Assembly: GCF_017433805.1 (NCBI RefSeq) | Contig: NZ_JAFRGN010000009.1 | Coordinates: 1 to 49,009 of the forward strand | DNA: 49,009 nucleotides | DNA from: Butyrivibrio sp. | GTDB lineage: Bacteria; Bacillota; Clostridia; Lachnospirales; Lachnospiraceae | Direction of reading: 5' to 3' | Shown here: in pieces, positions 5,567 to 40,942 of the stretch | Layout of the letters: every line of letters starts with the position of its first letter | Numbering within the stretch: position 1 is the stretch's first letter | Notes under the pieces: generated by a model | The model's input: only the letters and a program-made list of their open reading frames with translations | What the model was told of the DNA's origin: nothing | Database searches by the model: none | Made by a program: the position numbers and the translations under genes

Positions 5567-5869
5567 ACTGTTGAAATGTCGAATATAGAGATTTTCAACA
5601 GTCCAAAAGAGACCTATCAACCTGTTGAAAAAGCTAGATTATGAGAAAACAACAGTAATAAATTGGCTATTTAACCTGTTGAAAAGATGCTTTGTAGTGA
5701 TTTCAACAGTAAAAAACAGGTTGATAATACTGTTGGAATTAAAGATACTCGAATATCAACAGTAAAGATAGCAAGAAATGGCCTGTTGGAAAATGGATTT
5801 TGTGAATACCAACAGTAAAGATAGCAAGAAATGGCCTGTTGAAAAATTGGATTTTAGAATACCAACAGT
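5567..5869. repeat. Six-unit array of interspaced inverted repeats (CTGTTGAAA type)
   Basis: Six units of 35-36 bp start at 5567, 5621, 5675, 5729, 5782 and 5835, a period of 54 bp and then 53 bp. Each begins with (A/C)CTGTTG(A/G)AA and ends with its near-complement, ending in CAACAGT. The 15-16 bp interior differs between most units. The five spacers between units are all exactly 18 bp; three are unique and the last two are identical, so the array has grown by tandem duplication of a whole 53-bp period. Unit 5 has TTGG paired with CCAA where units 1 and 3 have TTGA with TCAA, a compensatory change. It fills most of the gap between the second MATE gene and a GNAT gene. This is not a CRISPR: only the arms are conserved, alternate arms are inverted, and no cas gene is near. 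Confidence 0.88.
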
Positions 5870-5941
5870 AAAACCGCATTTCAATTGTAATATTGACATG
5901 TTTTTGGCCCTACAATCATATACTTGGGAGATTGACGGTTA

Positions 5942-6388
5942 ATGGAAATATCAGTTATATCTTATGGTCATCCACTATGGGATGAAACTATTTCTTTTGC
6001 TGAGAACTGCTCATGGAAAGCCGGGCCATACCTGGCAAAGAGAATGAGAAATAACGAGTTCGAAGAAATTGAACGAGTAATCGTGGCAACGGAGAATGAT
6101 ATGCCTGTTGCGTACTGCACATTTTCTTTGAAAGATGAGCTACCTGAGACTTCGGAATATACTCCGTTTATAGGCTTTATGTTTGTAGATGAGAAATGCA
6201 GGGGCAAAAGAGTATCCGAAAAAATGATAGAAGTTGCTTCGGAGTATGCTAAGAGTATCGGCTACGAAACAATATATATCCTGAGCGGCGAAGTAGGTCT
6301 TTACGAGAAATATGGCTTTGAAAAAATAGGTGATGAAGAAACTGTATATGGCACAGTAGATCAGTTGTTTCAAAAGAAATTGATCTAG
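5942..6388 (+). CDS. GNAT family N-acetyltransferase
   Basis: A 148-residue GNAT protein. The middle strand (TPFIGFMFVDEKCRGKRVSE) contains the CRGKRV variant of the R/Q-x-x-G-x-G/A acetyl-CoA loop, followed by the helix KMIEVASEYAKSIGY and the terminal GLYEKYGFEKIG motif. The substrate is unknown. It follows the palindrome array, and a TTGACA/TATACT-like pair near 5893-5924 may be its promoter, though the spacing is long. The ATG follows GGGAGATTGACGGTTA, with GGGAG as the likely ribosome binding site. Confidence 0.85.
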   Translation: MEISVISYGHPLWDETISFAENCSWKAGPYLAKRMRNNEFEEIERVIVATENDMPVAYCTFSLKDELPETSEYTPFIGFMFVDEKCRGKRVSEKMIEVASEYAKSIGYETIYILSGEVGLYEKYGFEKIGDEETVYGTVDQLFQKKLI

Positions 6389-6415
6389 CGTAGGGGATTA
6401 AGCAGGGGAATTCAT

Positions 6416-6475
6416 ATGAACAAAGAATGGTCGGATAAAAACAAACTGTGTCAGACAGAGAAAAAGCGAGGATAG
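6416..6475 (+). pseudogene. Small ORF, probable N-terminal remnant of a DinB-like gene
   Basis: ATG 6416 with CAGGGGAA upstream encodes 19 residues beginning MNKEWSDKNK and stops at 6475, four bases before the MmcQ-MGMT start. The opening resembles the first residues of Lachnospiraceae DinB-like proteins as I recall them, so it may be the stub of a deleted gene. It could also be a leader peptide coupled to the next gene. The assignment is weak. Confidence 0.35.
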
Positions 6476-6479
6476 TCTT

Positions 6480-7103
6480 ATGAGAACAAGAGAAGAAGCG
6501 CTAAAATACGGTCTGTCTTTTCCGGGAACCTATCAGGAGGCTCCATTTCATGATCAGAACTGGCAGCTTGTCAGGGTAAAAAAATCCAAGAAAGCCTTTT
6601 TATGGACTTATGAAAAAGATGGCTTCATCAATTTGAATCTCAAGGTGGACCCTGAGTGGCGAGACCTCTGGAGAAAGACGTATACAGCCGTAATTCCTGC
6701 ATATCATCAGAATAAAGAGCACTGGAACACAGTTATCCTGGATGGTTCAATCCCTGACGATGTCATAAAAAGAATGATCGCAGAGAGCTACGACCTTGTC
6801 ACAGATTCACCTACAAAAAGAATTTATGAAGCAGTAAAGAAAATTCCAAAAGGAAAAGTTGCCACCTATGCTGACGTTGCAGAGATGGCCGGTGATAGGA
6901 AAATGGCAAGAGCTGTTGGCAATGCCCTTCACAAAAATCCAGATCCAAGTACCATTCCCTGCCACCGCGTTGTCAATTCAAAGGGAGAACTTGCAGGTGA
7001 ATACGCCTTTGGCGGAGCCTGGAAGCAGGCACAGATATTGGAGAGCGAAGGCGTCGAAGTTTTCGAGGGCAAGGTTAATCTGGATAAATATAGAATTAAA
7101 TAA
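6480..7103 (+). CDS. MmcQ/YjbR domain fused to methylated-DNA-cysteine methyltransferase-like domain
   Basis: A 207-residue two-domain protein. Residues 1-105 are an MmcQ/YjbR-like (DUF419, CyaY-like fold) domain, recognised from LSFPGTYQEAPF, the RVKKSKKAF strand and WNTVILDGSIPDDVIKRMI. Residues 113-200 are the C-terminal domain of O6-alkylguanine-DNA alkyltransferase: IYEAVKKIPKGKVATYADVAE, RAVGNAL with the Arg finger region, and PCHRVV carrying the acceptor Cys161. It would repair O6-alkylguanine by transferring the alkyl group to Cys161, or act as an alkyltransferase-like sensor. The MmcQ part may help bind DNA, which is inference. The ATG follows GCGAGGAT at normal distance. Confidence 0.87.
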   Translation: MRTREEALKYGLSFPGTYQEAPFHDQNWQLVRVKKSKKAFLWTYEKDGFINLNLKVDPEWRDLWRKTYTAVIPAYHQNKEHWNTVILDGSIPDDVIKRMIAESYDLVTDSPTKRIYEAVKKIPKGKVATYADVAEMAGDRKMARAVGNALHKNPDPSTIPCHRVVNSKGELAGEYAFGGAWKQAQILESEGVEVFEGKVNLDKYRIK

Positions 7104-7128
7104 ATGTTTGGAAAATGAGGAGTAAGTT

Positions 7129-8781
7129 TTGAAAAAGTTAAAGAAAATTGCGATATTCATTCTGGCTATGTTGGGAGTTCTTTTTATAATCCTGATGCTG
7201 ATGCCGGAGGATGATGAACTTTCCGATGGCGAAGAGGGAGCTGTCGTACAGACGGAGACCAATACAGTTATTCAGGATAATAATCAAAGCCAGTCTCTGA
7301 GCGAGGTATTCACTGTTGATGTGGGTACAGATGCTAAATCTGCAACAATTATGGTTTATATGAACGGTTCTGACCTTGAATCAGAGAGCGGAGAAGCCAC
7401 AGCTGATATAGCAGAGATGTTGGAATCCGGTATTGGTAAAAATGTTAACGTTATAATTCAGACCATGGGAACCAAGAATTGGCAGGACTATGGGATCAGA
7501 TCTGATACAGCCCAGACCTACAAGATAGAGGATGGTCAGCTAGTTCTTGTACGTGACAATCTGGGACAGCTGGATACAACTTCTAAGGATACCCTTTCTG
7601 AGTTCATCAGTTTTTGTAAAACAAATTACAGCGCTGACAGATATCTTTTGCTATTCTGGGATCACGGTGGTGGCCCTGTTTATGGCTTTGGCTATGATGA
7701 ATGGCAACCAGAAGAATACAGCCTTAACATTGCTGAGATGGCAGCAGCTTTTGCTGAGAACAAGGATATAAGATTCGACATCATCGGAATGGATTGCTGT
7801 ATCATGGCCAATCTGGAGACCTGCTATGCTCTTGCTCCATATTGCAAGTATGCACTATTGTCAGAGGACTTCGAGTCAGGACTTGGCTGGAGCTACACAG
7901 AATGGATGAAGACTTTCGAGGAAAATCCTGGAATATCAGCACCACTTCTTGGTAAAAAAATAGTTGATGACATTATCAAAGATAACGAAGAAGCCTTCAT
8001 GGGCGATTCTGCCTGCATAGCTCTTTTTAATGAGTCAACAGCGAGCAATCTTTTTACCGCATGGAAAGCGTATGCTTATAAAAATGAGGATGCGCTCTTA
8101 AATAAAAACTACAGCAAAATGCATAAGGCAAAGGGCCGCGCCAAGTCTAGCTTCTGGAGTTACTGGGGGCTTGATGAAAGTGATGTTACTTTGTCCGACT
8201 ATTACATTAGTGACATTCTCGCTCTGGTTGAAGGAATAGACAATAGCAGCGATGAAGCCAAGAACCTTATGTCAGCCCTTAAGGCAGCTGTCACCTACTA
8301 TGGACATACTTCGGATAAAAACGAGCTCACAGGAATGTCCGTATCACTGCCCTATGGAGACTCGTATTTCTATGAGAAGCTCAAGGATGTGTATAAAGAC
8401 ATCGATTTTGATGAGGAATATATTGCCTGGCTTGGGAATTTTGTTTCTGCAGAAAGCTATGATGACTATTACAATTACGATAGTTTCGAGGATAACTGGA
8501 ATGGTTGGGGCGACTACGAGAATGAGTACGGAGGCAATATAAGTAGCGGATGTGGTGAGTACTGCTACGACTATGACACCGGGGATTACTACGGGCACGA
8601 AGAGGAAAGTGCTGAAGATAACTGGATATACGACTACGAAGAAGAAATCTGGTACATGTATGAAAACGGCACACTCTACCTATACGACGAAGAATCCAAT
8701 CTTATCTTCTACTATGATGAGGATGAGGACAAGATGTACTACTACGATGAAGACCGAGATGACTGGTACTTGGCTGAATAA
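7129..8781 (+). CDS. Clostripain-family (C11) cysteine peptidase, membrane-anchored, with Tyr/acidic tail
   Basis: A 550-residue protein starting at TTG 7129, with GAGGAG six bases upstream. Residues 1-25 form one hydrophobic segment (signal or membrane anchor), followed by an acidic linker. The peptidase C11 core shows the catalytic His in LLLFWDHGGGP and the catalytic Cys in DIIGMDCCIMANLET, as in clostripain. Peptidases of this family cut after Arg or Lys and often self-process. The last 110 residues are very rich in Tyr, Asp, Glu and Trp (EEIWYMYENGTLYLYDEE), with a CxxxC pair (CGEYC), and match no module I recognise. The protein is probably on the cell surface; the tail may bind calcium or cell-wall polymers. 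Confidence 0.88.
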   Translation: MKKLKKIAIFILAMLGVLFIILMLMPEDDELSDGEEGAVVQTETNTVIQDNNQSQSLSEVFTVDVGTDAKSATIMVYMNGSDLESESGEATADIAEMLESGIGKNVNVIIQTMGTKNWQDYGIRSDTAQTYKIEDGQLVLVRDNLGQLDTTSKDTLSEFISFCKTNYSADRYLLLFWDHGGGPVYGFGYDEWQPEEYSLNIAEMAAAFAENKDIRFDIIGMDCCIMANLETCYALAPYCKYALLSEDFESGLGWSYTEWMKTFEENPGISAPLLGKKIVDDIIKDNEEAFMGDSACIALFNESTASNLFTAWKAYAYKNEDALLNKNYSKMHKAKGRAKSSFWSYWGLDESDVTLSDYYISDILALVEGIDNSSDEAKNLMSALKAAVTYYGHTSDKNELTGMSVSLPYGDSYFYEKLKDVYKDIDFDEEYIAWLGNFVSAESYDDYYNYDSFEDNWNGWGDYENEYGGNISSGCGEYCYDYDTGDYYGHEEESAEDNWIYDYEEEIWYMYENGTLYLYDEESNLIFYYDEDEDKMYYYDEDRDDWYLAE

Positions 8782-8788
8782 GCAATTT

Positions 8789-8820
8789 TGGACCTGGGGG
8801 ACGGGGTTAGTGGTCCATTT
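8789..8820 (+). repeat. REP-like element, copy C (single unit)
   Basis: GGACC, GGGGGACGGGGTTAGTGG and TCCATTTTT, eight bases behind the peptidase stop codon. Confidence 0.82.
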
Positions 8821-8910
8821 TTCTCAAGAACAATTATAAACAAAGAGTAGATTGTAGCAGCAAAAACTGTAGTGTACTATTTTAATAGAGCATTCGAAGG
8901 AGGAAACTAT

Positions 8911-8972
8911 ATGAAAAGATATGTAATCGCTCAGTAATCTGGGCTTAAAATACTGAATAATTAAGCTCAGAT
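8911..8972 (+). other. Eight-codon micro-ORF followed by hairpin (leader-like)
   Basis: A perfect AGGAGG (8898-8903) lies seven bases before ATG 8911, which opens an ORF of only eight codons (MKRYVIAQ, stop at 8937). An 11-bp stem with one G-U follows at once (arms 8938-8948 and 8962-8972). The next gene begins at 8998 with its own AGGAGGA. It could be a leader peptide with a regulatory hairpin, or the stub of a deleted gene. There is no T run, so it is not a plain terminator. Confidence 0.5.
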
Positions 8973-8997
8973 GAATCCAACAAGGTAGGAGGATTTG

Positions 8998-9306
8998 ATG
9001 AGCTATTTAAAAGCAGAAGATATTCTGCCAAAAGAATTAATAGAAGCAATTCAGCAGTATGTTAACGGAACAAACATTTATATCCCAAGCATTGATAAAA
9101 AGGACTGGGGAAGCCGAACGTGTTCGAAAGAATATTATGAACTCAGGAATCGTGATATCCATTCGCAGTACATGGATGGGATGCCAGTAAATGAACTGGC
9201 AGATAAATACTCCCTTTCAGAGAAAACGATATACAAGATATTGAGTAAATCACGTGTTTGTGCGGCTAACGATACTGACGAGTCTTTGGCTAAAAAGTAT
9301 TGCTGA
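8998..9306 (+). CDS. CD3324 family (Mor-like helix-turn-helix) protein
   Basis: A 102-residue DNA-binding-type protein. The order of motifs fits the CD3324 family of Firmicutes: AEDILPKELIEAIQQYVNG, then YIPSIDKKDWG, then RNRDIHSQYMDG, and a helix-turn-helix in MPVNELADKYSLSEKTIYKIL. These proteins resemble the DNA-binding half of the Mu Mor activator and probably regulate transcription; targets are unknown. ATG 8998 is used because AGGAGGA ends just upstream; the preceding TTG is adjacent and less likely. The C-terminal twenty residues are beyond the usual family end. Confidence 0.8.
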   Translation: MSYLKAEDILPKELIEAIQQYVNGTNIYIPSIDKKDWGSRTCSKEYYELRNRDIHSQYMDGMPVNELADKYSLSEKTIYKILSKSRVCAANDTDESLAKKYC

Positions 9307-9354
9307 TGAACCTTTTTGTATCCTATTGTCTGTTGAAAAGGAGACAAGAGAGTA

Positions 9355-9867
9355 ATGATAATAGAGACTACAAGATTAGAGATAAAAGACTTCATACTGG
9401 ATATGGCATATGATGTGCACAAGAACTCGCTGGATGAGGACAACAGAAGGTTTGTGCCTGACGAGGTTTTCGAGACAGAGGAAGATGCCAAAGAGACAAT
9501 TGAATTTCTGATGTCACAATATGGCTCTACTGAAGGCCCTTTGGTTCATCCGGTTTTTAGAAAAGAGGACAACATGAACCTTGGTTATGTCCAGATGGTG
9601 CCCATAGATGATGGCAAATGGGAGATTGGATATCACATAGCAAAAGAATTTACGGGGAAAGGCTATGCAACGGAGGCTGTGACAGCTTTTTTACCAGTTA
9701 TGGCTGATACCGTAGGCACCTCAGAAGTGTATGGCATTTGCCTCAGTGAGAACATGGCATCCAAGCATGTCCTTAATAAGTGCGGCTTTGAAGCAATCTT
9801 TGAGGGCACTGGTGACTATCAGGGAGAGAAAAGAGAAATCTATAAGAGCGTTTGGAAAAAGGCTTAA
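9355..9867 (+). CDS. GNAT family N-acetyltransferase (RimJ/RimL type)
   Basis: A 170-residue GNAT of the ribosomal-protein acetyltransferase class: N-terminal TTRLEIKDF, central WEIGYHIAKEFTGKGYATEAV holding the acetyl-CoA loop, and SKHVLNKCGFEAIFEGTG near the end. The RimJ/RimL type also includes acetyltransferases for antibiotics and peptides, so the substrate is open. AAGGAGA precedes the ATG at good distance. It is followed by a gene remnant. Confidence 0.9.
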   Translation: MIIETTRLEIKDFILDMAYDVHKNSLDEDNRRFVPDEVFETEEDAKETIEFLMSQYGSTEGPLVHPVFRKEDNMNLGYVQMVPIDDGKWEIGYHIAKEFTGKGYATEAVTAFLPVMADTVGTSEVYGICLSENMASKHVLNKCGFEAIFEGTGDYQGEKREIYKSVWKKA

Positions 9868-9878
9868 TGGGAGTATAA

Positions 9879-9996
9879 ATGGAGGAACAGTTTTTTTATC
9901 ATGTAATATCGGATGTTCCCAAGCACGGTCGAGATACTGGCTGATGGGGACATTGAGTTTGTTGAGATCGTAAAAGAAATAAATGCTAATATCTAA
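9879..9996 (+). pseudogene. Remnant of a small cytosolic protein gene with internal deletion
   Basis: ATG 9879 opens MEEQFFYHVISDVPKHGR, which runs into a stop at 9944. One frame over, the sequence continues as ILADGDIEFVEIVKEINANI with a stop at 9996, which looks like the natural C-terminus of the same kind of protein. The start (YHV...) reminds me of DUF2441-type proteins, but this is not certain. Most of the gene seems deleted, with a frameshift at the junction. Confidence 0.55.
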
Positions 9997-10022
9997 TATT
10001 GATTATTATTCACCATGATGGG

Positions 10023-10058
10023 AATGCCCGCAGATTAATTCTGTGGGCATTGTTTTTT
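10023..10058 (+). terminator. Rho-independent terminator
   Basis: AATGCCCGCAGA and TCTGTGGGCATT form a 12-bp stem with one G-U, followed by TGTTTTTT. Confidence 0.88.
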
Positions 10059-10086
10059 GAACTGCTTTAAGGTACGATACAAAAAT

Positions 10087-10150
10087 AGACCTAGGGGACG
10101 GGGATATAGGACCAAAAAAATGGACCACGAACCCCGTCCCCCTAGTCCAT
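10087..10150. repeat. REP-like element, copy D (inverted pair)
   Basis: Two REP-like units face each other across an A run: the first has GGGGACGGGGATATAGGACC and the second ACGAACCCCGTCCCCC. Together they form a long palindrome. It lies just upstream of the MATE ribosome binding site. Confidence 0.88.
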
Positions 10151-10171
10151 TTTGGAAAAGGAAGTAGTTTT

Positions 10172-11518
10172 ATGAGCAAGTCTTCAGTTAAGGATATGAC
10201 GGAAGGGTCCATAATCGGCCAGATTATAATGTTCTCGCTTCCGCTTATGCTGGGCAATATTTTTCAGATGCTGTATAACACGGTTGATTCTATCGTGGTT
10301 GGTAATTTCGTTGGAAAAGAAGCGTTGGCAGCAGTTGGTTCGACAACTATGATCATAAATATGCTGGTGTTCTTTTTTAACGGATTTTCAATTGGTGCGG
10401 GAGTTTTGATCTCAAGATATTTTGGAGGAAAAGACCTAAAGGGACTCCACAGGGCTATAGAAACAACTATCGCAACGACCTTTGTTTTCTGCGTCATTTT
10501 TACCATAATTGGTGTGCTTGGGGTTAAGCCCATGCTAGAATTCATGGACACACCGGCGGACGTTTTTGAAGATGCCACCACATATCTTCGTATATATTTC
10601 ATGGGCTTTTCGGGACTTCTCATCTATAACATGGGAAGCGGAATCCTGCGTGCAGTGGGAGATACCAGGCGCCCTCTGATGTTTCTTATTTTGACAAGTA
10701 TCATTAATACTGTGTTGGACCTTGTTCTGGTAATTGGCTTTAAGATGGGAATTGCAGGTGTTGCAACAGCTACCATTATTTCCCAGATGATATCTGCGGT
10801 TCTGATTCTTTATCTTTTGACCAGTACCAATGATATCTATAAGTTCGATTGGAACGATATGGGAATAGATCAGGAAATTCTGAAGATGATCTTTGCGGTG
10901 GGACTTCCAGCGGGCATTCAATCCGTTATCACTGCCTTTTCAAATGTGTTTGTTCAGTCTTATATCAATCACTTCGGCTCAAGCTGCATGGCAGGCTGGA
11001 GCTGCTACAATAAACTGGATGCTTTCATTCTGCTACCTATGTCCAGCATGGCCATGGCTGCAACAACATTTGTTAGCCAGAATGTTGGAGCCCATAAGAT
11101 GAAGAGGGCGGATGATGGTACAAGGATAACTGTAACCGCAGCAACCGGCATTACCTTTGTCATCGCAGTATTCCTATATTTCTTTTCATCAACTGCTGTC
11201 AGGATGTTCTCATCAGATCCTTCAGTAATAGAGTATGGAAGCCTGTTTATCCGCACAAATGTCTTTTTCCTGTTGGCTAACTGCATTAACCACACACTTG
11301 CTGGAGCACTGAGAGGACGCGGTGATTCACGAGGACCGATGATCATTATGATCATGAATTTCGTTGTGGTCAGGCAGATATATCTTTTTGTAATTACCCA
11401 TTATGTCGTTAACACCCCTAAGTGGGTAGGTTTCGGCTATCCTGTAGGCTGGGTATGCTGCTGTATAACGGAGGTTATTTACTACAACCTTAAGCATAGG
11501 AAAGTGAACGTAATGTGA
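10172..11518 (+). CDS. MATE family efflux transporter
   Basis: A 448-residue MATE exporter, third in this window and similar to the pair at 2822 and 4173 (MTEGSIIGQIIMFSLPLMLG, QMLYNTVDSIVVGNFVG). About twelve membrane segments, with VGDTRRPLMF and VGAHKMKRADDG at the equivalent positions of the two halves. It probably exports small cationic compounds using Na+ or H+. It is flanked on both sides by REP-like elements (copy D upstream, copy E three bases after the stop). AAAGGAAG precedes the ATG. Confidence 0.92.
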   Translation: MSKSSVKDMTEGSIIGQIIMFSLPLMLGNIFQMLYNTVDSIVVGNFVGKEALAAVGSTTMIINMLVFFFNGFSIGAGVLISRYFGGKDLKGLHRAIETTIATTFVFCVIFTIIGVLGVKPMLEFMDTPADVFEDATTYLRIYFMGFSGLLIYNMGSGILRAVGDTRRPLMFLILTSIINTVLDLVLVIGFKMGIAGVATATIISQMISAVLILYLLTSTNDIYKFDWNDMGIDQEILKMIFAVGLPAGIQSVITAFSNVFVQSYINHFGSSCMAGWSCYNKLDAFILLPMSSMAMAATTFVSQNVGAHKMKRADDGTRITVTAATGITFVIAVFLYFFSSTAVRMFSSDPSVIEYGSLFIRTNVFFLLANCINHTLAGALRGRGDSRGPMIIMIMNFVVVRQIYLFVITHYVVNTPKWVGFGYPVGWVCCCITEVIYYNLKHRKVNVM

Positions 11519-11521
11519 AAA

Positions 11522-11550
11522 TGGACCACTAACCCCGTCCCCTAGGACCA
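11522..11550 (-). repeat. REP-like element, copy E (single unit, inverted)
   Basis: The same element read from the other strand (TGGACCACTAACCCCGTCCC), starting three bases behind the MATE stop codon. Confidence 0.82.
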
Positions 11551-11615
11551 AAACAGACCCACAAAAAATAAACGCAAAAAGTCAAGAAACCTCCAAACGT
11601 AAATGGTATAAATAT

Positions 11616-11632
11616 CTTATCGGACCGATAAG
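11616..11632. promoter_or_regulatory. Candidate operator, perfect 8-bp palindrome
   Basis: CTTATCGG-A-CCGATAAG, 26 bases before the GTG start of the AraC-GGDEF gene and next to a TATAAATAT box. Its position suggests a repressor or autoregulatory site. The binding protein is unknown. Confidence 0.5.
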
Positions 11633-11658
11633 TAACCAAAACAAACAGGAGCTTAAGA

Positions 11659-12471: not shown

Positions 12472-12504
12472 CACGAATAGTCAAAAAGGGGAGGCAGAAA
12501 AGAT

Positions 12505-13323: not shown

Positions 13324-13328
13324 ATTGT

Positions 13329-13391
13329 TGGACCAGGGGGACGGGGTTGGTGGTCCAAAAAATGGACCACTAACCCCGTCCCCTAGGACCA
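13329..13391. repeat. REP-like element, copy F (inverted pair)
   Basis: Two facing units joined by AAAAAA give a nearly perfect 27-bp stem. The right end touches the thrS stop codon (minus strand, 13392-13394). Confidence 0.9.
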
Positions 13392-14680: not shown

Positions 14681-14945
14681 AAAAGCACCCATAAGACCAC
14701 TACAAATGATCTTAAGGGTGCAATATGCACGGTTCCACCTTAACTTTTCACTTCAGATTCTGACAAATCCTATCCTTTAACGCAGGCATACGGTAACACT
14801 TACTATTGTTGGGCGTTACAGCTCTGGAATGGTTTTCATTCGTTATCCTCATAAGTGACTTCCACCTTGTGCCACTCTCTCTGGATGATTCATCGCGAAC
14901 TACTCTTTCCGTCAATGCTTTTCTTATGTTATTGAAGCGATTGTA
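14681..14945 (-). ncRNA. T-box riboswitch (tRNA-Thr sensing) upstream of thrS
   Basis: Read on the minus strand, the leader contains the T-box sequence TAAGGTGGAACCGTGC (around 14727-14742). It is followed by the terminator stem GCACCCTTAAGATCA / TGGTCTTATGGGTGC and TTTT (14681-14721). Upstream lie the GA-rich Stem I parts expected of a T-box (GAGAGAGTGGCAC near 14870). Uncharged tRNA-Thr would stabilise the antiterminator and switch on thrS. The 5' boundary is approximate. Confidence 0.92.
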
Positions 14946-15050
14946 GCAAAACAGAATTTTTGTGTCAATGATTTTTGTAAATTTATTTTTTTGAATATTA
15001 CTATCAGACAAGATGAGATATATGTTATTATAGTCAGAAAATATGTGAAT

Positions 15051-15112
15051 GAACCTAGGGGACGGGGTTCATGGTCCAAAAAATGGACCACTAACCCCGT
15101 CCCCTAGGTCCA
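15051..15112. repeat. REP-like element, copy G (inverted pair)
   Basis: Two facing units joined by an A run, like copies D and F. This is the last copy seen in the window, upstream of the T-box transcript start. Confidence 0.9.
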
Positions 15113-20899: not shown

Positions 20900-23800
20900 T
20901 TATCTTCTGACTGATTTTACTGGTGCGGTATTAGTGACTGTTACAAGATAATCACCGCCCTGCCCCATGGCAAATACTGCATTTCCAATATCAATAATTT
21001 TGAAGCTGCCGCAATAATCAAGCTGGTTACGGGATGTGTTCAGCCTGTAGAGATTTGCGTATTTTCCCGCATTCTCTTTTCCTAATGCCACATGCAGATT
21101 GACAGTGCATGGGAATGCGCCGGTGTTCTTGATTGAAAGCTGCTTGGATGCAATCGCCTTCTTCTCAGCTATAAGAACGGAAGAGATAGCCTTTGGATTG
21201 CTGTTTAGAGAAAGATCAATCCTAGTGCTTGCTGCAATCTTTGGCATTTTGATATCTGTTCCTGTTATGCTAAGAGCTATGCCGCCGATACTGTGAATGG
21301 CAAGAGTAGTATTCTTACCCTTCAACATGCTAAGGACAGAAGCTGGAATGATAGTTTCCTTAGGCGAATTAATATTTAATGTGCCTGTAAGATCTAAGCG
21401 TTCCAGGCGACTTACAACAACAGGCCATGTGATGGCACCAGCTACAGCTGGTGTGCGGTTAGGAGCGATAGCTACTACCGGAGCCTGACTGGAATCTGAG
21501 GAGGTATCACCTGATGAACTCTGATTCTGTACGCTGTAGTCTCTGTTATCTGATGAAGCTGGCGTGTTGCTTTCTGAATTTGAAGGTGTCTCCTGAGAAG
21601 TTGATCCCTGAGCTGGTGTCTCCTGTGATGGCTGACTAGGAGCATCTTCGCTAGGTGTATCTTCAGAAGGAGTTTCTGGCTCTGCTGGTGCTCCCTCAGC
21701 GTAGGCTGTTGCTTCGTAGAAGCCGGTTTTGTTAGTTACAGTGTTGAGCATTGTCGCATAATCAAGGCCTGTTCTAAAGAAGAAAGTTACGGCAGTTGCC
21801 TCGTCTATTGTGAAGCTTCCGCTCAGAGAGCCTTCATTACCGTCGATAACGTTGTTCCAGGTATATGTTCCTGGTTCGATGAAAGCAGTTGCCATGTAGG
21901 CGTTTCTTGCAGTCTGGAGCATAGGAGATGCTACGACTGTATCACCATTTCTAAGTGAAAGCTCTACCTGAGCTGTTCCGATAGCCTTTTCATAGACTTC
22001 GCCATTTGCCAGCTTAAAGCTTGTAACTCCATCGCTGATAGAATCAAACACGTCTTTAGTTACTGAGTTTGCCCATACTAAGATAGAACCTGAGCCTTCG
22101 CCACCTGGAATGGTAGTCTTTTTGTTATCTGAAGGAATTTCTCCGTTACTCCATACTCTGTCGAAATTCACCTTGTACTGATAGGTTATTGATGTGGTAG
22201 GAAGTGTGAAATCAAGGGTTCTTGCGAAAACACCACCGCCGATATATTCGATGGTTGAAAGAGGATTGGCCTGATCCCATCCGCCGAACTCCTTAAACTC
22301 TTCAACACCGTTTCTGTTAAAGAAATTTCCTGTCCAGTTAGCAACCTTTTTGATGTCCTGAACTGGATTTCCATTTGAATCCTCGTGCTCATCCTGGCTG
22401 GTGAAAACGGTATTATTCAGTGCAAAGTAGCGGATAATGATGTTCTGGCTGGAGGAGCTTTCTCTTATGCTGCCTGTATAAATCTCCTCGCCGTTCAGGG
22501 TAATAGAGTAAGTAGTAACTCCGCCAGCAAAGGTTGCTGTTGTCTCGTACATTCCCTGTTCAAAGAGACTCATGTTGTAAGATGTATCACCAACTCTAAC
22601 CTGTAAATAGTCACCAGGTGCAGCAATGGTTGATGGCTGAGGTTTTTCTGAAGGCTCCTCGGAAGGTTTCTCAATTGGCTCCTCAGAAGGCTCTTCGATA
22701 GGTTCCTCAATTGGTTCTTCGGAAGGCTCTTCTGATGGATCAGGCTCAGAACCATTTGCCACTTCAAGCTCATACATACTTGCATATGTGCTGTTTATCT
22801 TAGTTACATGGATACGTACATAGCGGAAGCTTGATTCCTGGAAAAAGATTGTCTGGGCGCCTGCAGCGCTGCTGCTTCCAGTAGCTATTTCTGTGTATCC
22901 GTTTTCTGGATCATTACTTCCTTCGATGATATATTCTGTGTTGTAGGAATCTGCATAATCCCCAGTTCCACCCCAGTACAGGTTGACATGGTTAAAGGTC
23001 TTGGCGCTTCCAAGATCAACTGCGAACCAAGGATCTGGATCTTCCTGATGCAGAACGATGAAGGAAGTATAGCTTCCGTCTGTAAGGTTGCCTACGTTTC
23101 TGGCACCTATTCCAGCGCTGCTTCCTCTTGCGTTAGATGAAGCCATACCCTGCTTTTGAAGTGCAAGGTTTGTACCTGGCTCAAGGCCTCGATCTGTAAG
23201 ATCAGGCACGTTGTTTAAATCTCTGTAGATGTTTGCATAAGTATGAGCCTTCTGCTCGATTAAGTTTACTGTAGCTGTATCGTAGTTAACACGATTGTTT
23301 CTATAATCTGAGCTCTCTACCAGAGACTTTACTACTTCAGCATCAGCCTCTGAGAACTGTAAAACAGACTGCTCAGAACCAAGAATGGCATAGAAGATCG
23401 AGCTTGCAGAAATAAGTGAAGCCAGGTCATTGCCATGTACATTGTCACCTGAACGATACCAGTGCTTACCCTCATTGAAATACAGATCATAGTAAGCTTC
23501 ACCACTTGGAGCTAAAAGAGCTCCGTTGTCTTTAGCAACTGCTACATAGGCATCGGTGAAGCTTGTCTGCATGGAACTGAATACATCCTCGTTAGCCCAT
23601 GGCATATACAGAACAAGCTGAGGATGGTTTGGAGCTTCATCAATCCATGGTTTAAATGCACCAACACCCTGTCTTAATAAAGACTCGTTAAAACCTGAGG
23701 ATTTCTCCTGCAGGACTACATAATCATAATTACCTTCAATAATGGCAGCTCTTGTACTTGCTGCCAGAATATCAGCCTGATCAAATAATGATGCACCCAT

Positions 23801-31881: not shown

Positions 31882-31889
31882 TTTAATTT

Positions 31890-34612: not shown

Positions 34613-34709
34613 AGACATTAAGACAGGTATGATTTGGTTCATATAGATATGGAATTCATAGAAATATATTGATATATGAATGCTAGTGGATGGTTTTGAG
34701 GAGTTAAGC

Positions 34710-36488
34710 ATGGATTGGTTGGATAGTTTATATAGCGATGGAACGCGTGGATTTGTAAGTAATCAGACTCCGGAGCATGGTGAGAGGGTTAGAATCTCAA
34801 TGAGGGTTTTAAAAGACTCGCCGATAGAGAAGGTGTTTTTAAGACGTATAAGTAATGGAGCAGAGCAGTATATAGAGATGGAAAAAGACGACGATAGGTC
34901 TTTTGCCGGACTCTGGTATTATAGCGCAGAGACAGTTATGAACGAACCGAGGCTGTCATATTACTTTGTGATAGTGAGCGGGAATGTGATCTACTTCTAT
35001 ACTCAGGCAGGGATAACCACCTATGTGCCTGATGAAGCCCATAACTTTGTTCTGATGTCTGATTATGTTCAGCCAGAATGGGTAAAGGGTGCGGTATACT
35101 ATCAGATCTTTCCGACCAGTTTCAAGGATCATTCTTTATATGGAGTTATAGAGAAGATTCCGTATCTGAAGGAGCTGGGAGTTACTGCAGTTTACTTAAA
35201 TCCTATATTCACTGCGCCAAGTGAGCACAAGTACGACTGTGCTGATTACTTCCACGTGGACGAGAGCCTTGGTGGAGATGAGGCTCTGGTGGCACTTAGC
35301 AGGGCGCTCCATGAAAATGGACTTAAGTTGATCCTGGACATCTCCATAAATCACACTGGAATTGAACACAGCTGGGTTAAGGATAGAAGTGATTTTTATG
35401 TAAAAGATACTGATGGCTCTATTAAGGGCTGGGCTGGCTATAAGGGACTTCCTGTGCTGGATTATCGCAAGGATGAAGTCAGGGAGATTGTATATAGAGG
35501 CAAGGACTCTGTGATCAGAAAGTGGCTCCGCCCACCGTATAATGCTGATGGCTGGCGCTTTGATGTGGCTGATGTCTGGGGCAGAAATGATGATGTGCAG
35601 CTTGCGGATGAACTGTGGAAAGAGCTGTGCCAGGCAATCAGAGAAGAAAAGAAAGATGCCATGATAATAGGTGAGCACTGGGGAGACTGCACAGAGTATC
35701 TCCAGGGTGATCGGTGGAATGCGCCCATGAACTATTTTGGCTTTGGAAGGATTGCCAGACAGTTTGCGGGGCTTGGAGATCTTTTCCTTGAGAGAAATGA
35801 GATTCTAAGGGCTGTTCCATATGAGATGACTGCTCAGGATGTAGTTAACAGGACTAATGAGTATTATGCAAAACTCCCACAGACTATTGCAGACTGCAAC
35901 ATGAATCTTTTTGATTCACATGATGTATCAAGAGCCCACAATAATCCTGAAATAGATCAGGACAAGTGGCAAGGCATGGTGATCATGCAGTTTCTTTGGA
36001 CGGGAATTCCATGTATATATTATGGCGATGAGCTTGAAATCGATGGTTATATAGAGCATGACTCAGGTTTCAGGTACAAGATGCCATGGGAGGAAGAGGA
36101 GATGCGCAAAAGGGGAGAGCATTTCCGAACCTATCAGAAGCTTAACTGGTTACGCAGTAATGAGCCTGCATTTTCCGAGGGGGGAAGAAAAGTTTTATTT
36201 GCTGATGGAAAAATAATTGTCGTAGCCAGATTTATGGGTGATAATATATATATTGGAACCGTTTCCATGGAAGATACAGACAGGGTTATCACGATTCCGG
36301 TGGGATACGTCGGGGCAGTAGAGCCGGAGAATTGTGATGCTGATATATACAGGAAAGATACTTCTGGATATGAGAGTGGTGTAGATGAATTAGGTAGCTC
36401 TTTTACCGGAAGAAAGATAGATGATGGAATGTATGAGCTGGTGGTACCTGCGAAGGCTTCGTATGTTATCAAGATGAGTTCTCCATGA
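34710..36488 (+). CDS. GH13 alpha-glycosidase (neopullulanase / maltogenic amylase-like)
   Basis: A 592-residue cytoplasmic enzyme for alpha-1,4/1,6-glucans. It has an N-terminal beta domain (residues 1-115) and a GH13 barrel with the four conserved regions: LILDISINHTG, GWRFDVADV with the nucleophile Asp, MIIGEHWGD with the acid/base Glu, and NLFDSHDVSR with the third Asp. YYQIFPTSFKD opens the barrel. ATG 34710 is used because GAGGAG lies seven bases before it, unlike ATG 34680. No signal peptide: it degrades imported maltodextrins. Confidence 0.92.
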   Translation: MDWLDSLYSDGTRGFVSNQTPEHGERVRISMRVLKDSPIEKVFLRRISNGAEQYIEMEKDDDRSFAGLWYYSAETVMNEPRLSYYFVIVSGNVIYFYTQAGITTYVPDEAHNFVLMSDYVQPEWVKGAVYYQIFPTSFKDHSLYGVIEKIPYLKELGVTAVYLNPIFTAPSEHKYDCADYFHVDESLGGDEALVALSRALHENGLKLILDISINHTGIEHSWVKDRSDFYVKDTDGSIKGWAGYKGLPVLDYRKDEVREIVYRGKDSVIRKWLRPPYNADGWRFDVADVWGRNDDVQLADELWKELCQAIREEKKDAMIIGEHWGDCTEYLQGDRWNAPMNYFGFGRIARQFAGLGDLFLERNEILRAVPYEMTAQDVVNRTNEYYAKLPQTIADCNMNLFDSHDVSRAHNNPEIDQDKWQGMVIMQFLWTGIPCIYYGDELEIDGYIEHDSGFRYKMPWEEEEMRKRGEHFRTYQKLNWLRSNEPAFSEGGRKVLFADGKIIVVARFMGDNIYIGTVSMEDTDRVITIPVGYVGAVEPENCDADIYRKDTSGYESGVDELGSSFTGRKIDDGMYELVVPAKASYVIKMSSP

Positions 36489-36514
36489 AAACGGAGATGA
36501 GGAGGCAGAATTAG

Positions 36515-39043
36515 TTGAGTAATATAGTTAAGGGTGATAAATATCGTATCTCTGTGCTGACTGACAGGCTGATACGTCTTGAATATAGCGATGAAGGCAG
36601 GTTTGAGGACAGGCCTAGCTTTGCGTTTATCAATAGAAATGGTGCTACATGTACTGCAGGAAGTGCAGATGGCGATAGATGTCAGGCAGATACTGGACAG
36701 GACGGCACTATGGTTCGGGTTGATGACAGGGAAGACAGTCTTGTGATTGAGACAGCAGCTCTTTTGCTGACCTATGACAAAAAGGAATTCTCATCCTATG
36801 GGCTTACGATAAAGCTCAAGGAAAATGGCGTTGTCTGGAACTATGGTGACAGCTACACCGACTGGAGTAATTTGGGCGGAACAGCCAGAACTCTTGATGA
36901 TGCGGATGGTCGAGTAAGGCTTGAGAAGGGCATTTTTGGCAGAGATGGCTATGCGGCTATTGACGACAGCAAAACTCCTGTTATTGAAGATGGTGAGTTT
37001 GTTAATAGGCAGGAAGGCGCAGTTGACGTTTACTTTTTTGGCTATGGAAAGGACTACTACGGAGGGCTTCGCGATTTCTGCAAGATAAGTGGCAGGATGC
37101 CCATGATTCCCAGATATGCCCTTGGTAACTGGTGGAGCAGATATTATAAGTATACAGAAGATTCTTACATGGACGTGGTGGAGCATTTTGCCAAGGAGGG
37201 GATTCCTCTTTCTGTTGCTGTTATCGATATGGACTGGCATCTGACTGAGATCGATCCTAAATATGGCTCAGGCTGGACAGGATTTACCTGGAATGAGGAG
37301 TTTTTCCCTGATTATAAGAGATTCCTTAAAAAGCTTCATGACAATAATCTTGCTGTTACCCTTAACCTTCATCCAGCTGATGGAATCAGACCTTTCGAGG
37401 CTATGTATGATGACATGGCAAAGGAGATGGGGCTGAGTGAATGTGAAAGTGGGGCAGATAAGATAGCATGTGATGGTGAAAATGGGGAAGATAAGAAAGC
37501 TGGTGAAGGTGAAAGTGGTCATGATGATGTGACAGCTAATGAAAGCAAGAAATGCCATGATTTGAAGCCTGCTATCGAATTTGATTTTGGCGACAAGCAG
37601 TTTAGAGATGCATATTTTGATGTTGTAATGCACCCTTACGAAGAAGACGGCGTGGATTTCTGGTGGATAGATTGGCAGCAGGGAACTGGCAAGAAGTGTG
37701 GTGATGTGGATCCGCTTCTTTTGCTCAATCATTATCACTACGAGGATCAGGAAAAGAGAAATCTTCGTCCTATGATCTTTTCTAGATATGCAGGTGTTGG
37801 AAGCCATAGATATCCTGTGGGCTTTTCAGGAGATTCACATGTAACCTGGAAGTCTCTTGAATTCCAGCCATATTTTACCAGTACAGCCAGCAATATTGCT
37901 TACAACAACTGGAGCCACGATATAGGCGGACACATGCTGGGAGATAAGAATCTGGATCGTCTTATCAGATGGATAGAGTACGGAGTTTTTTCTCCTATAA
38001 TGAGAATCCATAGTAGCTGTAGCCCATTCTTTAACAAGGAACCATGGCTTCTGGATGAACCATACAGGAGCATTGTAGGCAAGTTCATGCGACTTCGCCA
38101 TCAGCTTATTCCATATCTTTATACTGAGAATCACAGAGCCTATGCGGAGTGTAAACCTCTTGTAAGGCCGATGTACTATGACTATTCAGATTGTGCTGAG
38201 ACTTATGAAGTTGGTAATGAGTACAAGTTTGGCGAGAATCTGATCGTCAGTGCTGTTACAAGTCCTGATGATGAGGAGCTTAGACTTGGGGCTACCAGAG
38301 CAGTAATCCCTGCTGGCAGATGGTATGACATTTTTAATGGACTCATTTATCAGAGTGAGAGCGGACAGGTTAAGAAGCTTTATAGAAAGCTTTTGGAGCT
38401 TCCAGTTCTTTTACCAGCTGGCGGAATTGTGCCAATGGCTTGTGGCGGGCTGGATGAGGATAATAGAATTGGTGATGACAAGGTTTCTGGTGGAAAAACT
38501 AGAAATGGAAACATCAATGATACTGGTAATCCTGCGGCACTCCATGTTCTGATTGGCGGAGGCGCTGATGGTGAGTACACAATGTACGAGGATGACGGCA
38601 TCAGCATGAACTTCGAGCAGGGTGCTTTTGTAAATACCAAGTTTGAAGTTAAGTATGATGAAGCTGCCAAGAGGATGGTTATCACTGTTAATCCTGCAGA
38701 GGGTGATGTAACACTCATTCCGGCTAAGAGAAGCTTTGAGTTTGAGGTTTATGGTATTAAGGCCGAACAAGGAGTTTGTGGAGATAAATCAGTAATAGTC
38801 AAGACTTCATCTGTTAATACTGGTGAGAAATTGACTATTGAGCTTACTGGTGTTGAGCTTCTGGAAAATGACTACAAGCAGATTGTCTTCGAGATTCTGG
38901 ACAGAGCTTGGATCAAGACTATCCACAAGGATATGATCTATGACAAGCTTCAAAAGCTTGATAAAGCTGAGTTTACAAATTGGATTCAGGGCGCAGATGT
39001 ATCTGAGAATCTTAAGAGTGCTATTAATGAGATACTGCTGTGA
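36515..39043 (+). CDS. GH31 alpha-glucosidase with hydrophilic insertions
   Basis: An 842-residue cytoplasmic enzyme starting at TTG 36515, with GAGGAGG upstream. The catalytic nucleophile lies in FWWIDWQQG and the acid/base Asp in GFSGDSHVTW, with YNNWSHDIGGHMLG after it, as in GH31. It releases glucose from the non-reducing end of maltodextrins or related sugars. Three acidic, Gly-rich, low-complexity insertions interrupt the normal fold: residues about 45-65, 305-350 (rich in G-E-N-G-E-D and G-E-G-E-S-G) and 645-675. They are in frame and leave the catalytic regions intact. The last 100 residues are an additional C-terminal part. Confidence 0.9.
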   Translation: MSNIVKGDKYRISVLTDRLIRLEYSDEGRFEDRPSFAFINRNGATCTAGSADGDRCQADTGQDGTMVRVDDREDSLVIETAALLLTYDKKEFSSYGLTIKLKENGVVWNYGDSYTDWSNLGGTARTLDDADGRVRLEKGIFGRDGYAAIDDSKTPVIEDGEFVNRQEGAVDVYFFGYGKDYYGGLRDFCKISGRMPMIPRYALGNWWSRYYKYTEDSYMDVVEHFAKEGIPLSVAVIDMDWHLTEIDPKYGSGWTGFTWNEEFFPDYKRFLKKLHDNNLAVTLNLHPADGIRPFEAMYDDMAKEMGLSECESGADKIACDGENGEDKKAGEGESGHDDVTANESKKCHDLKPAIEFDFGDKQFRDAYFDVVMHPYEEDGVDFWWIDWQQGTGKKCGDVDPLLLLNHYHYEDQEKRNLRPMIFSRYAGVGSHRYPVGFSGDSHVTWKSLEFQPYFTSTASNIAYNNWSHDIGGHMLGDKNLDRLIRWIEYGVFSPIMRIHSSCSPFFNKEPWLLDEPYRSIVGKFMRLRHQLIPYLYTENHRAYAECKPLVRPMYYDYSDCAETYEVGNEYKFGENLIVSAVTSPDDEELRLGATRAVIPAGRWYDIFNGLIYQSESGQVKKLYRKLLELPVLLPAGGIVPMACGGLDEDNRIGDDKVSGGKTRNGNINDTGNPAALHVLIGGGADGEYTMYEDDGISMNFEQGAFVNTKFEVKYDEAAKRMVITVNPAEGDVTLIPAKRSFEFEVYGIKAEQGVCGDKSVIVKTSSVNTGEKLTIELTGVELLENDYKQIVFEILDRAWIKTIHKDMIYDKLQKLDKAEFTNWIQGADVSENLKSAINEILL

Positions 39044-39124
39044 AGAGGCAGAACTGGAGAATATGGAGTTACTATAATAATTTGTTATATAAGTAAGAGA
39101 AAATAGAAGTCTGGTGAGTTATAG

Positions 39125-39155
39125 GAGCTGGTCGCATACGCGGCTGGCTCTTTTT
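39125..39155 (+). terminator. Rho-independent terminator
   Basis: GAGCTGGTCGC and GCGGCTGGCTC pair over 11 bp with wobbles around ATAC, followed by TTTTT. It ends the sugar operon. Confidence 0.82.
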
Positions 39156-39236
39156 ACGTTAGAAGATTGATTTCATGATGTTTTATATGTATGGTTAATA
39201 AAGAACATGAAGATTGCGACTGAGTGAGGCTTAAGA

Positions 39237-40247
39237 ATGATAGATAAGAAAGTCGGAAGCATGATTATCAATTTGTTTGCTCGAGGGGATCTGGGACAGA
39301 TTGCAACTCCTATAACTCCAGTGTCTGGCGGCTTTATGCATAGAATGTACCGCGTTGATACCACAAACAAATCATACGCAGTAAAACACTTGAATCCAGT
39401 AATCATGCAGCGCCAGGGGGCAAAAGACAATTACAAAAGAGCGGAAGCTCTTGAGAAAAAGCTTGAAGAAGCTGGAATACCAATAGTTCCTGCAATAACC
39501 ATTGATGGTGCCAAAATGCAGGAATGCCAGGGTGAATTCTTCTACATATTTGATTGGAAAGAAGGCAAGATTACTGATTGGAACAACATAACAGCTGAGC
39601 AGTGCTGGTTTGCTGGAGAAATACAGGGAAAGATACATGCAATAGAACCAAGGAAGATAGTACGAACTGGCGAGATGTCTCTTAGCAATATCGACTTTGG
39701 AAAATATATTAGAGAAGCTGAAAACAAAAATCGTGATATCTTTTTATGCCTTAAGGAAAATGAGAATCTGCTAAACTATGCTCAGGGGCAGCTGAATAGG
39801 GCGAGACAAGCACTTCCGGATATTGAATGTATTGTTGATGAAGACATGGATCCCAAGAATGTTATGTGGGATAATGGCAAGCCTTTTGTTATTGATCTGG
39901 AGTGTCTTGATTATGGAAATCCGATTTCCAGCGCAGTACAGCTTTCTCTTCAGTGGGCGGGAATTACGACCTGCAGCCTTGATCTTGCTAAGCACAGAGC
40001 CTTTTGGGAAGGGTATCTGGCTGAGTATGACTGTGGCTTTAGTGATTATGATAAAACCTTCGGAGTTGCCTATACCTGGATAGAATGGCTTGAATACAAT
40101 ATCTCTCGCACTCTTGGAAACTGCCAGGATGAGGCAGAGCGACAGATGGGCATAAATGAAGTTAAGAATACTGTGGCAAGAATTGCTTATATTCGAGAAA
40201 TGGAAGATGAGATTAAGCATAACATGAATTTGCTGTCATTGATGTGA
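39237..40247 (+). CDS. Aminoglycoside phosphotransferase-like (APH/choline kinase fold) protein
   Basis: A 336-residue kinase-fold protein. SGGFMHRMYRVDTTNKSYAVKHLNP is the ATP-binding lobe with the Lys, VDEDMDPKNVMWD corresponds to the catalytic H-x-D-x-x-x-x-N loop but has Glu in place of His, and FVIDLECLDYGNP is the Mg-binding Asp region. It may phosphorylate an antibiotic, choline, a sugar or another small hydroxyl compound; none is indicated by the context. No strong ribosome binding site is seen (GAGGCTTAAGA). The gene lies between the sugar operon and an acylphosphatase gene. Confidence 0.82.
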   Translation: MIDKKVGSMIINLFARGDLGQIATPITPVSGGFMHRMYRVDTTNKSYAVKHLNPVIMQRQGAKDNYKRAEALEKKLEEAGIPIVPAITIDGAKMQECQGEFFYIFDWKEGKITDWNNITAEQCWFAGEIQGKIHAIEPRKIVRTGEMSLSNIDFGKYIREAENKNRDIFLCLKENENLLNYAQGQLNRARQALPDIECIVDEDMDPKNVMWDNGKPFVIDLECLDYGNPISSAVQLSLQWAGITTCSLDLAKHRAFWEGYLAEYDCGFSDYDKTFGVAYTWIEWLEYNISRTLGNCQDEAERQMGINEVKNTVARIAYIREMEDEIKHNMNLLSLM

Positions 40248-40304
40248 GAAGATAGTTCTTTTGATAATGTATGTGAGTTCAATGCAGTAATGAGTGGAGC
40301 TATT

Positions 40305-40577
40305 ATGGAGAAAAGATATAGACTTAGATTTTACGGTACTGTGCAGGGCGTGGGATTCAGATTCACAGCATCCCATACAGCTAATATGTATAGGCTTACC
40401 GGTTATGTGAAAAATGAATATGATGGCTCTGTTACCTGCGAGGTTCAGGGAAGGCAGGAAGATATTGAGCAGTTTATTGCAGCTATTTATCGAGGGAGAT
40501 TTATTGAGGTTGATAGAATTGATAAGACTCAGCTTGAAGTTGATGATGCTGAGAGAAGTTTTGAAGTAAGGCATTAG
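40305..40577 (+). CDS. acyP: Acylphosphatase
   Basis: A 90-residue enzyme that splits acyl phosphates. It has the two catalytic residues of the family, Arg in GTVQGVGFRFT and Asn in GYVKNEYDGS. ATG 40305 is chosen because GGAGC stands six bases before it; ATG 40290 has no ribosome binding site. The TAG stop codon is the beginning of the first repeat arm (TTAGCCG) of the following array, so the repeat has become part of the gene end. Confidence 0.93.
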   Translation: MEKRYRLRFYGTVQGVGFRFTASHTANMYRLTGYVKNEYDGSVTCEVQGRQEDIEQFIAAIYRGRFIEVDRIDKTQLEVDDAERSFEVRH

Positions 40578-40942
40578 CCGAAATCGTTGCTGTTGCTTTG
40601 TTTTCGGCTAATGATTTTTTGGGGCTTTTTGTTGGGGGTTAGCCGAAATTGAAATATTTGATTGATGCGGCTAATTCGATTTTGCCTTGGTAAGACAGTG
40701 ATTTAGCCGCAGAGCCAGTATATGAGGCTCTGCGGCTAATGTGTTATGAAGGTGAATGTAAAGAGCTTTAGCCGAAATATGTGAATTTAGACATATGCGG
40801 CTAGATGTACTCAAGTAAGCACAAGATATGTGTTAGCCGAAAACAATGAAAGCATGTACATGCGGCTAAAAGACATTCACAACATGCCCAAATTCCATTA
40901 GCCGCATCATATTAAATCGCTACTATTCGGCTAAAGCCGCAT
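40574..40942. repeat. Six-unit array of interspaced inverted repeats (TTAGCCG type)
   Basis: Units of 36-38 bp start at 40574, 40639, 40703, 40768, 40833 and 40898, a period of 65, 64, 65, 65 and 65 bp. Each begins with TTAGCCG (followed by AAA or CA) and ends with CGGCTAA or a one-base variant. Interiors differ from unit to unit. The spacers are 27, 28, 28, 28 and 28 bp and share no obvious sequence. Unit 3 has arms extended to a perfect 14-bp stem around a nine-base loop. A partial arm (AGCCGCAT) follows at 40935-40942. The array fills the gap between the convergent acylphosphatase and lipoprotein genes. The layout is the same as that of the array at 5567, with unrelated arm sequence. No cas gene or recombinase is near. 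Confidence 0.9.

Follow-up and report, generated by a model that had tools for sequence, protein, structure and literature searches.

The stretch of DNA analysed here (the window) comprises 49,009 nucleotides of a Butyrivibrio sp. genome (Lachnospiraceae; assembly GCF_017433805.1, contig NZ_JAFRGN010000009.1, positions 1 to 49,009 of the forward strand). It possesses two arrays, A and B, of gapped inverted-repeat units, six units each, with arms in alternating orientation. Arrays of this kind recur in the genome and its relatives, and their probable partner is a family of proteins of about 265 amino acids (aa) with a nuclease-type domain, whose genes lie outside the window.

Arrays A and B

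Array A begins 48 bp beyond an open reading frame (ORF) of the MatE family. Its units extend over 33-34 bp from CTGTTG to CAACAG, with start-to-start steps of 54, 54, 54, 53 and 53 bp. The units of array B (TTAGCCG to CGGCTAA) are 36-38 bp long and follow each other at 65, 64, 65, 65 and 65 bp. The unit length of 35-38 bp given for both arrays in the initial annotation thus applies to array B, whereas array A, measured by its core arms, is shorter. The two arrays of six units described there are confirmed: A and B are the sole arrays detected in the window by arm-agnostic scanners, and Markov shuffles of the window (5 of first order, 100 of third order) yield no array at all. The only match to Rfam at gathering score in the window is a T-box leader (14711-14924, minus strand), and neither array belongs to an Rfam family at that score. 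A separate interspersed palindromic element resembling repetitive extragenic palindromic (REP) sequences, TGGACCACTAACCCCGTCCCCTAGGTCCA plus its complement, has one copy directly ahead of array A. Coordinates are listed in the table.

Table. Positions of the arrays, their units and the palindromic element in the window
Feature	Position	Strand	Remarks
Array A	5568..5868	.	6 units, arms (A)CTGTTGRAA, steps 53-54 bp
Array A unit 1	5568..5601	.	
Array A unit 2	5622..5655	.	
Array A unit 3	5676..5709	.	
Array A unit 4	5730..5762	.	
Array A unit 5	5783..5815	.	
Array A unit 6	5836..5868	.	
Array B	40574..40934	.	6 units, arms TTAGCCG(C/A)A, steps 64-65 bp
Array B unit 1	40574..40611	.	acylphosphatase ORF 40290-40577 has its stop codon in the first arm
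Array B unit 2	40639..40674	.	
Array B unit 3	40703..40739	.	
Array B unit 4	40768..40804	.	right arm (half-site 40798) with 1 mismatch
Array B unit 5	40833..40869	.	
Array B unit 6	40898..40934	.	
TGGACCACTAACCCCGTCCCCTAGGTCCA palindromic element copies	5522-5550, 8791-8817, 10088-10149, 11518-11550, 13329-13391, 15050-15112		

Further arrays and their helical phasing

Pattern searches of the same genome covered the whole 3.45-Mb assembly, each with a reversed-pattern control. CTGTTG arms occur at 2 places (control 0) and TTAGCCG arms at 10 places, from a single half-site pair up to nine units (control 0). A third arm, TTACCG, forms arrays at 3 places besides one single unit (14 matches vs 3 in the control). 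The genome thus holds the further arrays for which the initial annotation had proposed a genome-wide scan. An arm-agnostic scan of 396 kb of the genome detects only 2 TTACCG arrays, both previously known in the chosen stretches. The TTAGCCG core hardly varies among 71 distinct half-sites, and units are A/T-rich in their middle; the logo of these half-sites contains no conserved tag ahead of the core, in this arm family, the only one so analysed. The outer pattern of TTAGCCG is absent from all 60 other genomes of the genus searched.

Among 31 TTAGCCG units in eight arrays, 16 of 62 spacer pairs within arrays are at least 70% identical. No pair from different arrays reaches this value (0/403), and mean identity between arrays is 0.44, vs 0.42 for shuffled spacers. 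Since spacers are often alike within arrays and never between them, tandem amplification is indicated, and the sequences suggest that arrays are born in tandem and that spacers then drift while the arms stay constrained. Unit numbers differ between orthologous arrays: two vs five intact units in L076 and L103 (both labelled B. hungatei, flanks 91-99.5% identical), and two vs three in a second set (L079 and L081 vs L080). One locus of the window's genome, L017, carries the same TTAGCCG array twice (5246-5498 and 10257-10480, ~5 kb apart) with one unit sequence identical, pointing to local duplication.

Twenty stretches from genomes of the same genus (272 kb, six of the stretches entirely N) yield one clear new family, TGACTAA..TTAGTCA. 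A possible second one is TACCAAA in L043, where four half-sites directly follow a homolog of the protein gene described below; this array may be real. The TGACTAA pattern has 138 matches in 26 of 79 genomes of the genus: 16 genomes contain one match and 10 contain 3-30, with 16-30 unit matches each in G016, G035, G046 and G047. The reversed control has 24 matches in 17 of the 79 genomes, at most 4 each. In a collection of species genomes the two-unit TGACTAA pattern finds 55 loci, of which 53 bear the label Butyrivibrio or Lachnospiraceae. Proteins encoded at these loci occur in identical form in genomes of the window's genus, which agrees with a Butyrivibrio-type origin of the window. A TTAGCCG match on a viral contig (L120) and a Prevotellaceae locus (L070) were rejected, as they look like chance or another repeat. 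Across the relatives the arm families number about 30, some known from few units. The general class with many arm sequences envisaged by the initial annotation is supported, as neither outcome that it named as refuting (a lack of further arrays, similar hits in randomised sequence) occurred. Arrays of different families adjoin each other in two loci (L078 1526-2112 and L099 4011-4613), with GTACCTA or TGCCTAA beside TGACTAA.

Of 197 TGACTAA units from the 55 loci, 186 have a length of 34 bp. The gaps of 140 distinct neighbouring pairs measure 20 bp (1 pair), 29-30 bp (21), 38-41 bp (78), 49-50 bp (35), 61 bp (2) and 114-116 bp (3), and none measures 31-37 or 42-48 bp, though the query admitted 29-51 bp evenly. 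In L015 and L017 of the window's genome, neighbouring outer arms lie 34-35 or 24-25 bp apart, both within one array, and its TTACCG arrays have steps of 63-64 or 74-75 bp. When 26 arm families are taken together, the centres of units lie apart by multiples of ~10.5 bp (R=0.72 with each of 72 distinct periods counted once, R=0.86 with all 255 weighted); tandem copies are not independent, so that a p-value from N=255 would be too small, and the set contains two misread values for the family of array A (4 and 50). TGCCTAA gave no period. The fixed period of the initial annotation is not upheld, as in other arrays the period shifts by roughly one turn of the helix.

Arm position 8 does not covary between partner arms of 29 distinct TTAGCCG units (table 2,5/8,14; Fisher p=1). 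Inner pairing amounts to 3.79 in TTAGCCG units, vs 3.54±0.22 by chance, and to 2.14 in 165 TGACTAA units, vs 2.41±0.10 by chance. The units look like sites on one face of double-stranded DNA and, given helical-turn spacing without covariation of the arms, like the binding sites of a dimeric protein. Phased sites for dimeric proteins consequently fit best among the explanations listed in the initial annotation. Selection for hairpins, also listed there, finds no support in arms that do not covary, and hairpin or mRNA structure was rejected on the missing covariation (two arm families) and the helical steps.

Neighbouring genes are co-directional at 33, divergent at 15 and convergent at 14 of 71 arrays; a further 9 lie at a locus edge. 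This count takes in the window's genome and 55 fetched loci with mechanically called ORFs, counts homologous loci apart, includes the probably unrelated L070 and enters array B as co-directional owing to a spurious ORF. A start at or near the 3' end of a gene, claimed for both arrays, is correct for A (past the MatE ORF) and B (at the acylphosphatase stop codon) and does not extend to the 71 arrays, whose neighbour orientations do not fit a general 3'-end element. mRNA 3'-end structures, also proposed there, are likewise unsupported. Beside the acylphosphatase gene, at the position of array B, one of 29 other loci has an array directly after the gene (L190, CTGCTG arms). In L209 a CAGTGA array flanks the opposite side of the gene, L215 shows a chain of low complexity, and 26 of the 29 have none; some of these loci end at contig borders.

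A nuclease-type protein family beside the arrays

Ten of the 55 loci contain, next to or close to the TGACTAA array, an ORF of ~265 aa that belongs to one family throughout. The protein consists of an N-terminal part of ~130 aa with no assigned fold and a C-terminal domain of PD-(D/E)XK nuclease type. None of 58 homologs matches an NCBIfam model, and Pfam matches are scattered and weak (best E 0.0013, in one member). In 58/58 homologs the C-terminal half corresponds to the final ~130 aa of PDC-S68, a candidate defence protein (PADLOC); it also matches PDC-S69 and HEAT_CxxC_PDDEXK in 48/58 each, and a PHROG family of phage Holliday-junction resolvases in 26/58; a weak alignment to T7 endonuclease I (E 0.2) spans RS-E and PDF. 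Invariant in the 58 homologs are K160, E162, E179, P192, D193, F194, E208, G211, Y218 and E245, and H209 is nearly so. The putative active-site residues E162, D193, E208 and H209 may resemble the EDxHD motif of homing endonucleases.

The window's genome possesses six intact copies of the gene and one broken copy. The family is present in 53 of 61 genomes of the genus (1-9 matches each) and in 37 of 196 genomes of the order, from 17 of 99 genera. In a sample of 299 genomes of the phylum, 10 match: four full-length and six, outside the order, over part only, five of these from residue 134 or later and one from 75, mostly within longer frames. The gene is kept under purifying selection, as dN/dS ranges from 0.02 to 0.42 in 11 ortholog pairs. 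A search of 50,697 phage records gives 3 matches, of which one covers 96% of the query, and a phage origin was rejected; so was a plasmid origin, with matches in 10 of 72,556 plasmids over 25-49% of the query (C-terminal part). The matched plasmid proteins are annotated as AAA ATPases or RecD-, RecQ- or UvrD-type helicases in nine of ten records; one record is unannotated. tRNA genes are a usual integration site for mobile DNA, and homolog genes in L125, L251 and L253 lie downstream of apparent tRNA genes (read by eye).

With a strict scanner, an array is detected no farther than 1.2 kb from the gene in 32 of 59 homolog loci; among 77 control windows taken from ordinary DNA of the genus, 3 contain an array (Fisher 1e-11), and one of these is the true G016 array. 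The proportions are 4/7 in the window's genome, 20/30 in the genus and 8/22 in other genera; the 59 loci include near-identical orthologs (e.g. L145-L148) and some cut by contig ends, and the 32 include a weak GTCACA chain (L184). Other weak array candidates are the GCCTTCC and GTAATA chains of L043 and L044 (control DNA) and GTTTTA in L121. The array is upstream of the gene in 29 of the 32 loci, and L154 and L172 have arrays on both sides. In L154 a 359-bp direct repeat (869-1227 and 2479-2837, 97% identity) brackets the nuclease-type gene, each copy containing an ATAGGAT array.

Different copies of the gene have different arms beside them. Genome G031 has arrays at five of seven homologs, with the arms TTAGCC, TACGTG, TACCTG, GACGTA and TGGTAT. 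The protein tree groups the TGACTAA proteins in a single clade (support 100/99), which also holds proteins with the arms ATGCCTAA, ATGACTTT and TGTACCTTA; further shared clades unite TACGGATAAG with ATAGGATAAG and GTATATA with CATATAA. Many loci of the TGACTAA clade were fetched through their arrays, and independent evidence comes from the eight closest loci retrieved through the protein only and from the second gene copies of G035 and G047. The eight comprise five TGACTAA arrays, one ATGCCTAA array and two loci without an array by the scanner (L136, L143); the second copies (54-56% identical) have arms of their own, CATGACC and ATGACTT. In the 61 genomes common to both searches, at least three TGACTAA units occur in 6 of 9 genomes with a protein at least 54% identical to that of L109, vs 2 of 52 without one. 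Among 32 proteins, similarity of the arms correlates with identity of the proteins (r=0.59, p=0.0002; arms assigned by eye).

The broken copy (C57:177961-178604) lies 282 bp from another TTAGCCG array and is the presumed cognate gene of array B. Both of its pieces, searched separately, match L123 best (arms TTTACCGCA; 52% and 66%), and L158 and L160, with TTAGCCT arms, rank second to third for the N-terminal and third to fourth for the C-terminal piece. Its other near relatives are L156 (no array found) and L163 (TCCGAC).

Probable phased binding sites, rival readings and known systems

From the pattern of the sequences, the arrays very probably consist of phased binding sites, with the ~265-aa family as their partner. 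Each arm family would belong to one gene of this family, with the N-terminal ~130 aa as the putative DNA reader. A dimer would hold both arms of a unit of ~29-42 bp with the A/T-rich centre in between, and successive units at whole helical turns would place neighbouring dimers on one face, where they could cooperate. Binding would hold the arms constant while the spacers drift. The resident nuclease may cut or nick inside its own repeat units, and repair may then expand or contract arrays and now and then seed a new one. That nuclease activity drives the change and spread of arrays, in the manner of the REPtron discussed below, is a tentative proposal somewhat short of probable; the combined statement of phased sites, partner nuclease family and nuclease-driven dynamics appears moderately probable. 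The sequences themselves show the arrays, their phasing, the linkage of gene and array, the likeness of arms among close relatives, the purifying selection and the differing unit numbers of related genomes; binding, dimerisation, cleavage, dispersal and any benefit to the host are inferred.

Several observations weigh against this reading or parts of it. Spread to new places would require the copying of arrays, and since the spacers of different TTAGCCG arrays are unrelated, copying from array to elsewhere is not visible and confidence in the combined statement is slightly lowered. A search for a precise empty site yielded none; in 15 relatives that have the gene neighbouring the L131 homolog, neither a homolog nor an array was detected beside it, and synteny is not kept there. 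Twenty-seven of the 59 homolog loci lack an array by the strict scanner, as does the second clade copy in G016 (L276), where none was found. Single TGACTAA matches carry no meaning, the reversed control being at a similar level. G008 (11) and G004 (7) contain TGACTAA unit matches without a close protein of the clade; the listed G004 units are near-copies of one another and perhaps represent another dispersed repeat. With TGACTAA as one row, arms and proteins correlate weakly across families (n=22, r=0.11, p=0.07), and TATCGCA is off phase with a period of 70.5. The arms of array B are nearly perfect despite its presumed cognate gene being broken. The cognate gene of array A was not found, and CTGTTG sites near L121, L126 and L134 were rejected as its partner loci because they are not phased.

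The arrays might instead form a regulon, in which a regulator using a nuclease fold for binding or sensing controls its own gene and others through phased operators. The upstream position in 29 of 32 detected gene-side cases, the cooperative binding that phased operators favour and the constraint on the gene agree with this; we consider it unlikely, as 14 of 71 arrays lie between convergent genes (by mechanical ORFs) and all 58 proteins keep the putative catalytic residues unchanged, which is unexpected in a pure repressor. A defence function, with the nuclease acting on invading DNA and host arrays holding, titrating or licensing it, would account for the C-terminal matches to candidate phage-defence proteins and to AAA ATPase- or helicase-annotated plasmid proteins and for the several diverged copies per genome. 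This is quite unlikely, since the candidate defence proteins have the nuclease domain alone in common with the family.

It is very unlikely that the arrays serve chromosome organisation, as anchors where the protein bridges or loops DNA and its nuclease domain resolves junctions: several diverged copies with separate arms per genome and a presence in 37 of 196 genomes of the order suit a housekeeping role poorly, even if the sites are few, scattered and without fixed gene orientation, the phasing suits filaments or loops and the domain is resolvase-like. Arrays selected as RNA 3' structures or extruded DNA (hairpins, cruciforms) we regard as extremely unlikely. The arms are inverted repeats, the stems of a few units are extended (e.g. 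40703-40739) and the nuclease domain resembles junction resolvases; against this stand the lack of covariation at position 8, inner pairing not above chance in both families measured, 10.5-bp steps without meaning for RNA hairpins and the absence of an Rfam family at the arrays at gathering score.

Among known systems, arrays of clustered regularly interspaced short palindromic repeats (CRISPR) are likewise built of short invariant segments and of spacers whose sequence varies at a nearly fixed length. Unlike these, the arrays of phased binding sites have arms of 6-9 bp in alternating orientation, two spacer classes and no long direct repeat, and the exclusion of CRISPR in the initial annotation is sustained by this repeat structure. 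The REPtron consists of a nuclease-type gene per repeat family (a REP-associated tyrosine transposase, RAYT, or TnpA_REP) with cognate clusters beside it and further copies elsewhere, as described in passages of PMC3116915 and PMC8266576. Inverted doublets in tandem and a co-evolving recognition, described in the same passages, are further features in common with the present arrays. Here, too, cognate repeats lie beside the gene (32/59 loci vs 3/77 control windows) and are scattered (TTAGCCG at 10 places, TTACCG arrays at 3, TGACTAA with 16-30 matches in four genomes). One gene copy per repeat family may also apply, with five arrays and five arms in G031 and differing arms of the second clade copies in G035 and G047, no array having been found at the second G016 copy. 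The domain here is of PD-(D/E)XK type, whereas that of the REPtron is an HUH (Y1) single-strand endonuclease related to IS200/IS605 transposases; the arms are 6-9 bp long without a GTAG-type tag (checked in the TTAGCCG family only), unit length is near-constant with helical phasing, and units number tens per genome vs hundreds or thousands of REPs. The system is thus organised like a REPtron in kind, and membership fails on enzyme type and repeat type.

The bacterial interspersed mosaic elements (BIMEs) of E. coli are also tandem, intergenic inverted REP pairs; however, those described in part of PMC8266576 consist of REPs of 29-37 nt forming stem-loops with a variable linker, instead of short arms at helical-turn steps. 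Homing endonucleases have a related catalytic motif class and are sometimes free-standing genes, and, as far as the relevant part of PMC6083498 describes them, cut a site in a conserved gene lacking them, in contrast to the many short half-sites grouped in private arrays here. No description of the present system was found in the literature searched, which was open-licence PMC only and does not establish absence in print. The view is slightly favoured that it represents an undescribed class of nuclease-repeat systems in bacteria: a resident PD-(D/E)XK-type family that would diversify into mutually orthogonal copies, each maintaining phased arrays of a 6-9 bp word at places throughout the chromosome.

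On this reading a family without a clear Pfam or any NCBIfam match would acquire a defined partner on the DNA, and its recognition code could be read from the arrays, each of which would predict the binding target of the protein encoded next to it. The copies would provide a naturally occurring series of related DNA-reading proteins that differ in the word they recognise, and it becomes testable, in a system without sequence relationship to RAYTs, why nucleases resident in a genome are accompanied by intergenic repeats.

The window contains two further tandem repeats, both inside long minus-strand ORFs: one with 51-bp units at 41061-41162, in the ORF of a Cthe_2159-type carbohydrate-binding protein, and one of 12/36 bp at 22646-22732.

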